Shown here: positions 24,212 through 30,872 of the stretch, piece after piece
Position numbering within the stretch: position 1 is the stretch's first letter
Layout of the letters: every line of letters begins with the position of its first letter
From: Spirochaetota bacterium
Lineage (GTDB): Bacteria; Spirochaetota; JAAYUW01; JAOAHJ01
DNA: 34,462 nt
Assembly: GCA_026415295.1 (NCBI GenBank)
Contig: JAOAHJ010000021.1
Coordinates: 1-34,462, forward strand
Direction of reading: 5' to 3'
Position numbers and translations under genes: made by a program
Notes under the pieces: model-generated
What the model was told of the DNA's origin: nothing
The model's database searches: none
Seen by the model: only the letters and a program-made list of their open reading frames with translations

Positions 24212-25420
24212 CTAAATATCAATTAATTTTTTTATAAACCTTTTATATTTTAGTCCATACTTTGTTATCTTACCATTTATAGCATTTGTTGGGCAAATAT
24301 TTATACATCTATAACATGCTATGCAATAATCACTATTCAATATTAAATTTTTTTCTATCATTTTTACCTTATTAATTTTTAAATTATTAATTTTTATTCT
24401 TTCCCCCTCATCTTCAATAATATAGCTATTATTTTGATTATTTTTAATTTGATTATTTTTATGAAAATATTTAATAATAATCGCATTAGTTGGGCATAAA
24501 TTTAAACAATTAAAACACAATGTACACAATTCTGAAATTATATATTTTTTAAACATTTTTATAAAAATATTTTTATTATTAAATATACTTTGCATTAAAA
24601 TAATGTAAGGATAAGTCAAAAAATTTATTAAATTTTTAAAGAATCTATTAATTGGATTATTTTGACTAAATTTAATATTCTTTTTATCTAAGTCAAAATT
24701 ACTAATAAAACTTAAATCTTTACTATTTTCAGGTAGTTTTTCAATCAAATAATTGGTCAAAAAATATATAAATTTATCCCTTACTCTTCTAAATGATTTT
24801 TTAGATGGATAACCTTTTGATATCAAAGGATTAAATTTTAATCTTAAGGCAGGGTGACTGTCTTCAAAATGAAGAGATTCAAAAAAAATAACATTAAAAG
24901 CTTTATAATTTTTTTTAATATAGTAAGCTATATTTGATGGAAGCCCCCCATCTGTTGTTAAAATTATCAAATCAATCTTTTGTTGAAAATAAATCAAATA
25001 TTTTTCAATTAATTTTAGTAAAGCCAATATTAGTTTAGGTGGTTGATAAAAATAAACCGGAAATGATAAAATTAAAAGTTTTGATTTTGATATTTCATCC
25101 AATAAGTTAAATAATGAAATGTTTCCATTTGTTAAAAAAGAATCATTTTCATGATTTTCATTTATATTTAAACCTTTTAAAAAATAAAAAAAATTTTCAT
25201 TTATCCTATAAGAAAAAAAATCATCAAAATAATTTTCTATTTCTAATTTCTCTACATTTATAACTTCTAATAAAGGATAGTTTGAATTTATATCACCCAT
25301 AGTATTTGAGATTTTACTTAAAAATCCATCTTTAATATATTTGCCAAAATAGTAGGAAATAATTTGCACCATTGTTTTCGTATTACCTGTGCCAGAAAAA
25401 TAAATCCAATTGATTTTCAT
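24212..25420 (-). CDS. EFR1-type flavodoxin plus 2x[4Fe-4S] ferredoxin protein
   Basis: The N-terminal flavodoxin-like FMN loop is YFSGTGNTKT, a few residues from the start. The C-terminal part has two CxxCxxCxxxCP clusters (CTLCFNCLNLCPTNAI and CIACYRCINICPTNAI), each ligating a [4Fe-4S] centre. This is the layout of EFR1-family proteins, cytosolic electron carriers of anaerobes. I use ATG 25420 because the fold normally begins right before the FMN loop; ATG 25453 is an in-frame alternative, and neither has a Shine-Dalgarno site. The two clusters are separated by an unusually long Asn/Lys/Ile-rich insert of about 50 residues. It follows nadE by about 65 bases (32 from the longer start) and could be cotranscribed. 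Its redox partner is unknown. Confidence 0.85.
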   Translation of the reverse strand: MKINWIYFSGTGNTKTMVQIISYYFGKYIKDGFLSKISNTMGDINSNYPLLEVINVEKLEIENYFDDFFSYRINENFFYFLKGLNINENHENDSFLTNGNISLFNLLDEISKSKLLILSFPVYFYQPPKLILALLKLIEKYLIYFQQKIDLIILTTDGGLPSNIAYYIKKNYKAFNVIFFESLHFEDSHPALRLKFNPLISKGYPSKKSFRRVRDKFIYFLTNYLIEKLPENSKDLSFISNFDLDKKNIKFSQNNPINRFFKNLINFLTYPYIILMQSIFNNKNIFIKMFKKYIISELCTLCFNCLNLCPTNAIIIKYFHKNNQIKNNQNNSYIIEDEGERIKINNLKINKVKMIEKNLILNSDYCIACYRCINICPTNAINGKITKYGLKYKRFIKKLIDI

Positions 25421-25485
25421 TAATAAATTATTTAATTTTTCTCTAAATACCATAATAAATATTTTTTATATATTTTTATAATATA

Positions 25486-27195
25486 TTAACTTAAAAAAAT
25501 ATTATAATAAAAACTATTGAGAGGAAAATTTCTATCACTTCCAAATGACTTTCTTGAAAATTTTAGTAATGGGGGAGCCTGTTTTCTCTTATATTCATTT
25601 TTAAAGATTAATTTTATTGTATACATAACAGTTTCTCTATCAAAACCCATACTTATTATTTCTTCATGATCCTTATTTTCTTCTAAAAAATAATAAATTA
25701 TTAAATCAAGGATATCATAAGGTGGCAAACTATCTTGATCTTTTTGGCCATGTCTTAATTCTGCTGATGGGGCCTTTTTTATTATATTTTCAGGGATTAT
25801 TTCTTTCTTCTCTTTTATTATCTCTGAAATATTAAAAAATCTTTTATTTTTAATATGAGCTTCTATAAATTCATAATCATTATTTATAAAGTTTGCTAAC
25901 TTATAGACTAAAGTTTTATAAATATCTCCTAGAACACAAACTCCACCTGTTATATCTCCATACATTGTGCCATAACCTGTTGCAACTTCACTTTTATTGC
26001 TTGTGTTTAATAAAAAATACCCAAATTTATTGGAGAAAGCCATTAATATATTTGCTCTAATTCTTGCTTGAATGTTTTCCTCTGTTACATCAAAAGGTTT
26101 CCCTAAAAAATAGGGGTTTAATTCATTTAAATAAGTTTCATAAATAGTATTAATATTTATTTTATCACATTTTATTCCCAAATTACTTGCAAGATTAAAT
26201 GAATCCTTAAAAGATCCTTCAGATGAAAATGGAGAAGGGAGAGTATATGAATAAACATTTTCAGGGCCAAAGGCTTTTGTTGCTATGTACCCAACAAGTG
26301 CAGAATCTATGCCTCCAGACAATCCAACACAAACTTTATTGAAACCTGAATTATTTACATAGTTCTTAACTGAAAATATCATTAAGTTATGAAGCTTAAA
26401 TAAAATTTCTTCATCAAACTCAGGAAACTTGGAAATATTTCCAAATCTTTCAAAATTCACATAATATTCTGAAGATAAACTTATTTTTTCCTCTAAATTA
26501 GACAATTTTATAAATTCAATATTTTTACCCTCAGGATTATAAAAACTCAATCCTTCATCTAAATATGGAGTTACAATTATCTTATTTTCTTCTTTTATAT
26601 AAAAGTTAGTTTCACAGTCAAAAACATTTTGATCAAATACTCCACCAATAGAACATTGAATGTATATTTCAGAAACATATTTTTTAATACTTTCAATAAA
26701 TTTTTTTATATCATTATCTTTATAATAATTATAAGGAATAGGTAAAAGATTAACAATAAAAGATTGTTTTGTTTCTCTAAAAAAACTTTCAAGATCAATA
26801 TTCAAAGTTTTATTTAAAATTAGAAAAATTTGAAAATTATCAATTTTAACAAATGAATTTTCATTTAATTTTTGTTTAATTTCTCCATTTTTTATTATTA
26901 AAACCGAATCTTTAAATTTACAACCTTGATAACAAAATGGGAGTGGCAAAATAATGTAAAGATTTTCAAAATTTCTTGAATAGGATAAGATTCTCGAAAT
27001 ACTATTTTCAATTTTTTCTTTAAATACAGAATATAGTGTTAAATCACCAGGATCATAACCTGTCATAAAATATTGAGGAAAAATCAATAACTGTGAATTT
27101 TCTTTATTTGCTATTTCTATAAACTTATTAATAAGCTGACAATTTTTATCAATATCAAGATAAAAAGGAATTCCTTGAGCAATAGCTATTTTCAT
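25486..27195 (-). CDS. nadE: NAD+ synthetase with degenerate glutaminase domain
   Basis: This 569-residue protein has the two-domain layout of glutamine-dependent NAD+ synthetase. The C-terminal synthetase is intact: ATP loop LSGGIDSAL (292-300), NTSNKSEVATGYGTMYGDIT and KAPSAELRHGQKDQDSLPPY. It amidates nicotinate adenine dinucleotide to NAD+. The N-terminal nitrilase-like half (1-250) keeps the fold (IFPQYFMTGYDPGDL; IQCSIGGVFDQNVFD) but not the catalytic residues. The catalytic Glu of FPE is Gln41. Where ICED-like wording with the nucleophile Cys belongs (about 123-130) the sequence is IFLILNKT, with no Cys from 93 to 180. It should therefore depend on free ammonia or another donor (inference). 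ATG 27195 begins MKIAIAQ as in the family. It is divergent from cinA, which makes related products. Confidence 0.9.
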   Translation of the reverse strand: MKIAIAQGIPFYLDIDKNCQLINKFIEIANKENSQLLIFPQYFMTGYDPGDLTLYSVFKEKIENSISRILSYSRNFENLYIILPLPFCYQGCKFKDSVLIIKNGEIKQKLNENSFVKIDNFQIFLILNKTLNIDLESFFRETKQSFIVNLLPIPYNYYKDNDIKKFIESIKKYVSEIYIQCSIGGVFDQNVFDCETNFYIKEENKIIVTPYLDEGLSFYNPEGKNIEFIKLSNLEEKISLSSEYYVNFERFGNISKFPEFDEEILFKLHNLMIFSVKNYVNNSGFNKVCVGLSGGIDSALVGYIATKAFGPENVYSYTLPSPFSSEGSFKDSFNLASNLGIKCDKININTIYETYLNELNPYFLGKPFDVTEENIQARIRANILMAFSNKFGYFLLNTSNKSEVATGYGTMYGDITGGVCVLGDIYKTLVYKLANFINNDYEFIEAHIKNKRFFNISEIIKEKKEIIPENIIKKAPSAELRHGQKDQDSLPPYDILDLIIYYFLEENKDHEEIISMGFDRETVMYTIKLIFKNEYKRKQAPPLLKFSRKSFGSDRNFPLNSFYYNIFLS

Positions 27196-27385: not shown

Positions 27386-28873
27386 ATGCTTAAAATTGCT
27401 TTAATAACAGTTGGTGATGAATTAATATCAGGAAAAATATTGAATTCTAACTTAAAAGAAATAGCTGAAATTCTCTTATCTGAAGGAATTAAAATAGATT
27501 CACAATTTGTAGTAGGTGATAATGAAGATAAATTAGTTGAGGTCCTTAACTTTTGTATTAAAAAATTTGATATAGTTATAGTTTCTGGGGGACTCGGTCC
27601 AACTTCTGACGATATTACAAGGTTTGCAGCTTCAAGATTTTTCGAAAAACCATTAAAGAAAAGTGAACATGCTTATGAAAACCTTATTAGATTTTATAAA
27701 AATAGGGAAATGCCTGACTCAAACTTAATTCAAACTTTAATCCCCGAAGGCTCTACGCCAATAGAAAATAAATTGGGAACTGCTGCAGGTTTTTACTACT
27801 TTTATAATAAAACTCACTACTATTTTATCCCAGGAGTTCCAAAGGAAGCTATCGAAATGTTAAAGAGCTACATAATAAAAGATATAAAAGAAAAGTTTAA
27901 TATTAATAATATGATCCATAACTTCTCTTTGTTTTTATCTTTAATATCTGAGTCAAAAACATATGATATCTTATCCAACTACAACAAATATGATGAGATA
28001 AAAATCTTATTTAATCCAGGATTCTATCCATCACATAACTTTATCAAAATAGTTTTTAATTTCACTTTAAATAATTCTTCTATTAATATAGAAAATTCTC
28101 TATTAAATTTTTTGGATTACATAATAAATAATTTAAAAAATAAAATATTTTTTTACTCATTTGATAAAAATTTTTTAACAAACATATCAAAGAATTCTAA
28201 CAATGATCAAAATATTTACAAAAATTTTTACTTTAAAATAGTAAATTTAAATAAAAATTTTCAAATTTTAAATAAAATTTTTTATGAAAAATTTATTTTA
28301 TTTCTTGATAATAAAAATTTAATTAACAATGAAAATTTTAATAGATATGAATATTTTAAATCCATATTATATAATAATCAAGAATTACTACCTGCATACA
28401 TTGCTATTGAATTATTAAAAAATTTTAATTATACCATATCAACTGCTGAAAGTTGTACAGGAGGATTAATAGGTTCTAAACTAACTAATATAAGTGGATC
28501 TTCAGAAGTTTTTAAAGGGGGAATAATTGCATATTCAAATGAAATAAAAAAAGAGATATTAAAAATTAAAGATGAAACATTAATGAAATTTGGTGCTGTA
28601 TCAAAAGAATGTGTTAAAGAGATGGCAGAAAATGTAAAAAATATTTTCAAAAGTGATGTTTCTATAGCAGTAAGTGGAATTGCAGGTCCAACTGGAGCAA
28701 CTCCAACTAAAGAAACAGGCCTTGTATATTATTGTATAAATATTAAGGATAATTATCAATTATTTGATTTTATTTTTCCTTTTGATAGAATAATAAATAA
28801 AGAAAGATTTGCAAATACTGGGATTTTATTAATTATATCTATCTTAGAGGAATTTTTGCAAAAAAATAATTAA
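27386..28873 (+). CDS. cinA: CinA: MoCF-like domain plus NMN amidohydrolase (PncC)
   Basis: This 495-residue protein has the N-terminal COG1058/MoCF domain (ITVGDELISGKILNSN; VSGGLGPTSDD; FIPGVPKEA near 148-155) and the C-terminal PncC domain (STAESCTGGLIGSKLT near 352-367; VSGIAGPTGATPTKETGLVY). CinA proteins deamidate nicotinamide mononucleotide and hydrolyse ADP-ribose. It is some 75 residues longer than the usual 410-420 because of an Asn/Phe/Lys-rich stretch around 255-335. A ggaat site lies before ATG 27386. It is divergent from nadE, another NAD-metabolism gene, across a 190-base gap, and 29 bases upstream of the recombinase gene. Confidence 0.92.
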   Translation: MLKIALITVGDELISGKILNSNLKEIAEILLSEGIKIDSQFVVGDNEDKLVEVLNFCIKKFDIVIVSGGLGPTSDDITRFAASRFFEKPLKKSEHAYENLIRFYKNREMPDSNLIQTLIPEGSTPIENKLGTAAGFYYFYNKTHYYFIPGVPKEAIEMLKSYIIKDIKEKFNINNMIHNFSLFLSLISESKTYDILSNYNKYDEIKILFNPGFYPSHNFIKIVFNFTLNNSSINIENSLLNFLDYIINNLKNKIFFYSFDKNFLTNISKNSNNDQNIYKNFYFKIVNLNKNFQILNKIFYEKFILFLDNKNLINNENFNRYEYFKSILYNNQELLPAYIAIELLKNFNYTISTAESCTGGLIGSKLTNISGSSEVFKGGIIAYSNEIKKEILKIKDETLMKFGAVSKECVKEMAENVKNIFKSDVSIAVSGIAGPTGATPTKETGLVYYCINIKDNYQLFDFIFPFDRIINKERFANTGILLIISILEEFLQKNN

Positions 28874-29876: not shown

Positions 29877-30872
29877 CTACTTTTTATAAATCAAATAATA
29901 TTGAACAATTATAGGAAGTATCATAACTGAACCTTTTTTAATTGCCCCATATATATTTAAATAATAATTTCCAGGTTCAGGAAGTTTTACATATATTCTC
30001 CATCTAAACATATTATCTTCTTTTAATACAAATACTGTAGGTTTATTATTAATTTTTTCAAACTTATCTCTTGAAAGAAGTTTAGCAGTTATCTCCAAAT
30101 TATCTAAAGGTGTTGAAAAACCTATTGTCAATTCATTCTCTGAGGTTTGAATCCTTGAGTATGGGTGACTGGGGGAAGTCAATTTAAGCTTAAAAAATTG
30201 AGGCCACACATATAAAAGATTAAAAAAAGTCTGCAAATCAATTTTATTTGGAACTAATTGCCAAAAAGGATCTTCTGGAAAATGGGTATACAATAACTTA
30301 TCTGGATCAGGACAAAAATAGAACTCTTCATATTCTTTCTTAAATGAAAACCCATCCGTATAACCTGCACCCCATGTAGCATCAATAAGGTACCATTTAT
30401 TATTAATATTTATTGCATTCCAAACATGGTTATTTTTTGGAATACCAGTATTAGAAGGATCATATTTATAATCCTTAGCAAAACCTTTTATAATTTCGCA
30501 TTTTATATTTGCAATATCACACATTTTCTTAAACAAAGAAGCATATCCACTACATACTCCCTTTCTATTTTGAAATGTAGAATCCGCATCATAATTTGAG
30601 ACAAAACCCGGATAAAGCCCATAAACATCATAAGAAATATTATCAGTTATCCAAATCCATAATGCTCTGGCTTTTTCAAGATCATTTTTTGATGTTGCAA
30701 CAAGATATTTAGTTAAAATTTCTATATCTGAAGAGTATTGAGAAGGCACATTTCTTGCATAATTATCTATAGAAGAAAAATTTGATGGATCAAAATTTTG
30801 ATAGGAATAAAATAAAAAGATAAAAAAAATCAAAATTAAACTTAAAGTAAACTTTTTAAAATTTACTTTCAT
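29877..30872 (-). CDS. Exported KY-like transglutaminase-fold protein
   Basis: This 331-residue protein starts with a signal peptide or membrane anchor (hydrophobic 9-22). A transglutaminase-like papain-fold domain follows with the full triad: C107 (GVCSGYASLFKKM), H149 (NNHVWNAI) and D164 (LIDATWGAG). The C-terminal part, with HFPEDPFWQLV and a beta-rich region to the end, resembles the KY/hillarin-type transglutaminase-like proteins. It may be a protease or cross-linking enzyme outside the cytoplasm; the actual reaction is not known. It follows the hybrid histidine kinase by 17 bases on the same strand with a gtggggt site, so the two form an operon. It ends in TAG. Confidence 0.85.
   Translation of the reverse strand: MKVNFKKFTLSLILIFFIFLFYSYQNFDPSNFSSIDNYARNVPSQYSSDIEILTKYLVATSKNDLEKARALWIWITDNISYDVYGLYPGFVSNYDADSTFQNRKGVCSGYASLFKKMCDIANIKCEIIKGFAKDYKYDPSNTGIPKNNHVWNAININNKWYLIDATWGAGYTDGFSFKKEYEEFYFCPDPDKLLYTHFPEDPFWQLVPNKIDLQTFFNLLYVWPQFFKLKLTSPSHPYSRIQTSENELTIGFSTPLDNLEITAKLLSRDKFEKINNKPTVFVLKEDNMFRWRIYVKLPEPGNYYLNIYGAIKKGSVMILPIIVQYYLIYKK

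Follow-up and report, generated by a model that had tools for sequence, protein, structure and literature searches.

Known NAD Synthetases and Retained Glutaminase-Like Domains

Type F NAD synthetases (NadEs) of known structures, including 5kha, 4f4h, 3n05, and the M. tuberculosis enzyme (3dla), are fused proteins in which a glutaminase half of nitrilase fold precedes the synthetase half. In the main survey of these enzymes, all the fused forms characterised previously use glutamine (PMC3376133), and free ammonia is accepted besides it (PMC6946656, PMC3376133). The "YRE loop" positions the Glu-Lys-Cys triad and couples the two active sites (PMC6946656). Synthetase halves in contact with a glutaminase half carry a distinctive extended C-terminal loop (PMC3376133). 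In addition, PII binds and de-represses the glutamine-dependent NadE2 (PMC7196632).

The window studied here, the whole stretch of 34,462 nucleotides from a Spirochaetota bacterium, encodes a NadE that shares with the type F enzymes the domain order, the synthetase half, the nitrilase fold, and the C-terminal loop. Unlike the glutamine-dependent type F enzymes, it lacks both the Glu-Lys-Cys triad and the YRE loop, and its first half is predicted to be unable to support glutamine use. As judged from alignments and a predicted structure, it is very probably an ammonia-dependent synthetase that retains its pseudo-glutaminase as a structural partner. Single-domain NadEs (type N: 1xng, 2e18, Bacillus NadE, and those that replace the fused form in three genomes of the same order, G001-G003) share with it the free-ammonia chemistry that would be expected here. 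They lack the first half and the C-terminal loop, whereas the window's enzyme has both and groups by sequence with the fused enzymes. Vertebrate CPS1 offers a parallel, as it also retains an ancestral glutaminase-like domain and uses external ammonia (PMC4655335). The glutaminase domains of the two systems are unrelated, however, and the human site survives with a Cys to Ser change, whereas the site in the window's enzyme is deleted.

The nadE Gene and the Loss of Its Glutaminase Site

The gene (Table 1) belongs to a draft genome of 2.1 Mb (39 contigs, 96% complete). The SGGxDS ATP motif and the substrate-site columns are kept, as in members of PF02540, and the N-terminal half of nitrilase fold and the extended C-terminal loop are those of type F. 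The marks of glutamine-dependent enzymes are missing, from the triad and the YRE loop to the score against the NCBIfam fused NAD synthase model (PRK13981/NF010588), which reaches 426.2 bits for a cut-off of 479. The Pfam CN_hydrolase model matches residues 2-109 only, with 26.5 bits.

Table 1. Position of the nadE gene and of its features within the window.
Feature	Position	Strand	Basis
nadE, fused pseudo-glutaminase and NAD synthetase, 569 aa	25486..27195	-	ORF (exact match), Pfam, NCBIfam
Pseudo-glutaminase half, N-terminal, aa 1-243, nitrilase fold kept	26467..27195	-	AlphaFold2, fold search, conserved columns
Gln41 codon, replacing the catalytic Glu	27073..27075	-	Alignment with fused relatives
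Remnant of the catalytic segment, aa 110-139 (30 aa)	26779..26868	-	Profile of intact glutaminase halves
Linker between the halves, aa 244-255, low confidence	26431..26466	-	pLDDT <50
NAD synthetase half, aa 262-569	25489..26412	-	Pfam NAD_synthase, 236.7 bits; 64/70 near-invariant columns
SGGIDS ATP-binding motif, aa 293-298	26302..26319	-	5/6 residues invariant (alignment A1), I296 almost
Insertion of ~22 aa, near aa 441-462, before IIPENII	25810..25875	-	Alignment A3; pLDDT <50 at aa 452-460
C-terminal interface loop, aa 543-558	25522..25569	-	Published signature (PMC3376133), found here

Alignment with 109 fused NadEs of the same phylum, all with an intact Glu-Lys-Cys triad, places Gln41 in the Glu column, Glu112 in the Lys column, and a gap in the Cys column. 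The sequence-only reading had reported the Gln41 replacement and the lack of a nucleophilic Cys, and both are borne out; no overlooked triad emerges from the alignment, and the loss of the Lys, unnoticed earlier, adds to the other two. A model built from the 109 intact halves matches residues 1-109 and 140-220 only. Its positions 110-171, a segment of 62 positions that holds the Lys, the YRE loop, and the Cys, are shrunk to 30 residues, the YRE loop being deleted along with them. Homology of this half is supported by a score of 58.2 bits, versus -0.2 or less for its shuffled versions. Near-invariant columns, i.e., those at least 95% conserved in intact fused enzymes, are kept at 64 of 70 positions in the synthetase half versus 16 of 37 in the glutaminase half. 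The former, described earlier as textbook, deserves the term except for the insertion of ~22 residues, its sole oddity, which its relatives in alignment A3 do not have. The other two reading frames of nadE are full of stops and devoid of an ICED motif, which rules out a frameshift or a Cys hidden in another frame. No firmer case for the catalytic loss of this half could be made from sequence: with neither the triad nor the YRE loop remaining, the half is predicted to be unable to hydrolyse glutamine.

Recurrence of the Loss in Other Genomes

Within the Spirochaetota sample, Borrelia/Borreliella, two more families, and four individual genomes have NadEs whose triad is incomplete or absent. Borrelia/Borreliella make up family f36, as indicated by plasmid contigs of genomes G233 and G105 that are 100% identical over 8 kb to Borreliella chilensis and Borrelia hermsii. 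No readable member of this family retains the triad, not even the one (L069) with a Lys in the Lys column, from which both Glu and Cys are gone. A further Borreliella-type nadE of this family (L077, genome G247) has its frame broken in the pseudo-glutaminase half, by an assembly error or a true break, leaving an open frame of 377 aa only, and is unscorable. The loss extends to four of the four genomes of family f34 and to genome G277 (family f53). Genome G116 (L063) displays Lys, Ala, and Gly in place of the Glu, Lys, and Cys, and its congener G218 is intact. All 70 synthetase columns are kept in L063, and six of the 37 glutaminase columns are changed, namely the Glu, the Lys, the Cys, the Glu next after the Cys, and two others; by this pattern, L063 is a predicted clean loss of activity, not a case of gene decay. 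In genome G081 (L150), the Cys is changed to Gly, the Glu is kept, and the congeners are intact. Likewise, G010 (L174) and G354 (L166) have lost the Cys region and kept the Glu, and their close relatives are intact. Four fused NadEs from other phyla also lack the catalytic Cys, namely L187 (Odoribacter sp. Z80), L231 (Bacteroidales bacterium Emb289P1bin57), L243 (an Oxalobacter sp. of the sheep omasum), and L228 (a Kiritimatiellia genome). Their loss is possibly linked to ammonia-rich gut habitats, the omasum being the one such source on record. Most of the genomes besides those of Borrelia are draft or metagenome assemblies; G177, which is cut off at a contig edge and shows adapter-like sequence, was excluded.

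No second full NAD synthase is found in the twelve eroded genomes searched. A glutamine synthetase match is present in the window's genome and in several eroded ones, though the genomes of Borrelia, two of the four from f34, and G277 yield none. A missing glutamine synthetase is thereby ruled out as the general cause.

On a maximum-likelihood tree built from 73 rows of synthetase-half sequence, five changes of triad state are required. Forcing all eroded forms together as a single clade lowers the log-likelihood by 222 units (p-AU 1.4e-5), and one common loss for all of them is rejected. The window's enzyme, Borrelia, f34, and G277 lie on long branches on one side of a weak branch (68/81), and a single ancient loss uniting these four would be allowed. 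The synthetase-only forms of G042 and G050 are nested among the fused NadEs (98/95). Loss of the glutaminase in fused NadEs is thus repeated, apparently an undescribed pattern: no earlier description was found in the open-access literature, most subscription papers lying outside the search. These proteins are a bacterial analogue of the CPS1 pseudo-glutaminase, replicated independently several times and caught at different stages: a few active-site residues are changed in L063, a segment is deleted in the window's enzyme, and the domain is gone in G042 and G050. They make it testable why dead amidotransferase domains persist and whether PII loss precedes. Since fused NadEs are classed as glutamine-dependent by architecture alone, the eroded ones are probably wrongly annotated.

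Probable Ammonia Use and Proposed Role of the Retained Half

The sequence-only reading had proposed an enzyme either ammonia-dependent or fed by another protein. The former option stands: the window's NadE would have to run on ammonia, because its glutaminase site is gone, fused NadEs accept free ammonia, and no other NAD synthase is found. The search of the 96% complete genome for another nadE returned weak, local matches only, so no paralogue is detected alongside what is the organism's only detected NAD synthetase. In the proposed mechanism, the intact synthetase half would activate NaAD with ATP, and cytosolic NH3, presumably the sole donor, would then attack and amidate it. The folded pseudo-glutaminase would pack on the synthetase half via the retained C-terminal loop, probably serving dimer assembly and stability. 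The glutaminase may have become dispensable where ammonia was plentiful or PII sensing already lost.

Structurally, AlphaFold2 predicts a nitrilase-type first half (mean pLDDT of the protein 82.7, pTM 0.86), with pLDDT values mostly of 80-96 over residues 1-230, and lower (64-79) at residues 121-150, around the shrunken segment. The best solved matches in a fold search are the fused NadEs 3n05, 4f4h, and 5kha. The C-terminal interface loop is found in the window's enzyme and in the eroded fused forms examined, and is absent from the synthetase-only L028, L033, L040, and L041. No close relative of the window's NadE exists in the collections searched, nor did a scan of genome contigs with this sequence alone return one; the estimates of selection come from Borrelia. 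Among Borreliella/Borrelia sequences, the dN/dS ratio is 0.34-0.35 for the dead half versus 0.19-0.23 for the synthetase half; the former is relaxed yet constrained. Together with the column changes in L063, these features point to a loss of catalysis with the scaffold retained. The structural role proposed earlier for this half thus gains backing from the confidently predicted fold, the interface tail, and the purifying selection in Borrelia, from which it may be inferred.

The faster evolution of the dead half in Borrelia would also suit a decaying relic, under little selection and heading for loss, without present function, and the nesting of G042 and G050 among fused forms means that the glutaminase domain can be dropped entirely. 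Such a relic is an unlikely description of the half, however: its nitrilase fold is still predicted with confidence in the window's enzyme, the Borrelia ratio of ~0.34 is well below 1, the frame is kept in nearly all sampled species (L077 being broken), and the interface loop is present wherever the half is present.

The latter option of the earlier reading fares less well and is improbable; here, a separate nitrilase or glutaminase would bind to NadE or deliver NH3 to it, in the manner of the two-subunit type C/R. Two-subunit NAD synthetases do exist (PMC3376133), and the window's genome has a free nitrilase, the amidase-like L035, whose Glu-Lys-Cys is intact, the only intact free-standing one found there. 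L035 is located on another contig, though, and fits best an archaeal-type nitrilase model (256.9 bits, cut-off 500) and far less the NadE model (87.2 bits, cut-off 479). Moreover, the pseudo-domain already fills the place where a subunit would dock, and the enzyme still has its C-terminal loop. Two other candidate glutaminase subunits, L036 and L037, were dismissed, as they resemble Lnt apolipoprotein N-acyltransferases.

It is very improbable that the pseudo-glutaminase hydrolyses something via an altered mechanism: the 16 retained near-invariant columns could be taken to speak for it, but no nucleophile, base, or Lys is left, and the positioning loop is deleted. Finally, a sequencing or assembly artefact (frameshift or chimera) in this multi-contig draft can practically be set aside, given the unbroken frame of 569 aa, the stop-filled alternative frames without the missing motif, the distance of the Glu to Gln41 change from the shrunken segment, and the like losses in independent genomes, including single-contig Borrelia-type chromosomes.

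Erosion of the Glutaminase and Absence of PII

No canonical PII is found in the window's genome. Among the genomes of the tree set, a canonical PII is present in none of the 18 with an eroded form versus 40 of the 53 with an intact one, the usual presence of a PII gene being what intact relatives share with NadE2(Gln), which PII controls (PMC7196632); the naive Fisher test (p 6.6e-9) ignores kinship, and some of the intact genomes counted are incomplete. Two of the eroded genomes, G010 and G354, have weak, divergent PII-like matches. On supported branches, only four contrasts are independent, of which usually two or three agree and none disagrees, so kinship could explain the pattern. The link between eroded glutaminases and PII absence is therefore suggestive, and not significant after correction for kinship. 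Thirteen intact genomes are devoid of canonical PII, which fits a PII loss preceding that of the glutaminase. Tentatively, and with some doubt, the recurrent glutaminase loss might follow PII loss, with the retained half turned into a non-catalytic regulatory or assembly module in lineages including the sampled Borrelia/Borreliella. Such a module may act, for example, in NAD feedback inhibition or dimer formation.

Genes Surrounding nadE

Divergent from nadE, a gene at 27386-28873 (plus strand) encodes a CinA/PncC-type protein of 495 aa that passes the PncC domain cut-off. It possesses an extra Asn/Lys-rich stretch, roughly residues 200-325, between its two domains. PncC deamidates NMN, thereby releasing ammonia, and the nadE-CinA/PncC pair is for this reason linked, at least thematically, to NAD salvage. 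Downstream of nadE on the same strand (24212-25453, minus), the encoded protein harbors two 4Fe-4S motifs and is closest to the EFR1 ferredoxins (58.7 bits, cut-off 75). Farther away, at 29877-30872 (minus strand), a transglutaminase-like protein is supplemented by a KY-type immunoglobulin-like domain (Pfam, 65 bits), a pairing that is, to our knowledge, uncommon in bacteria.
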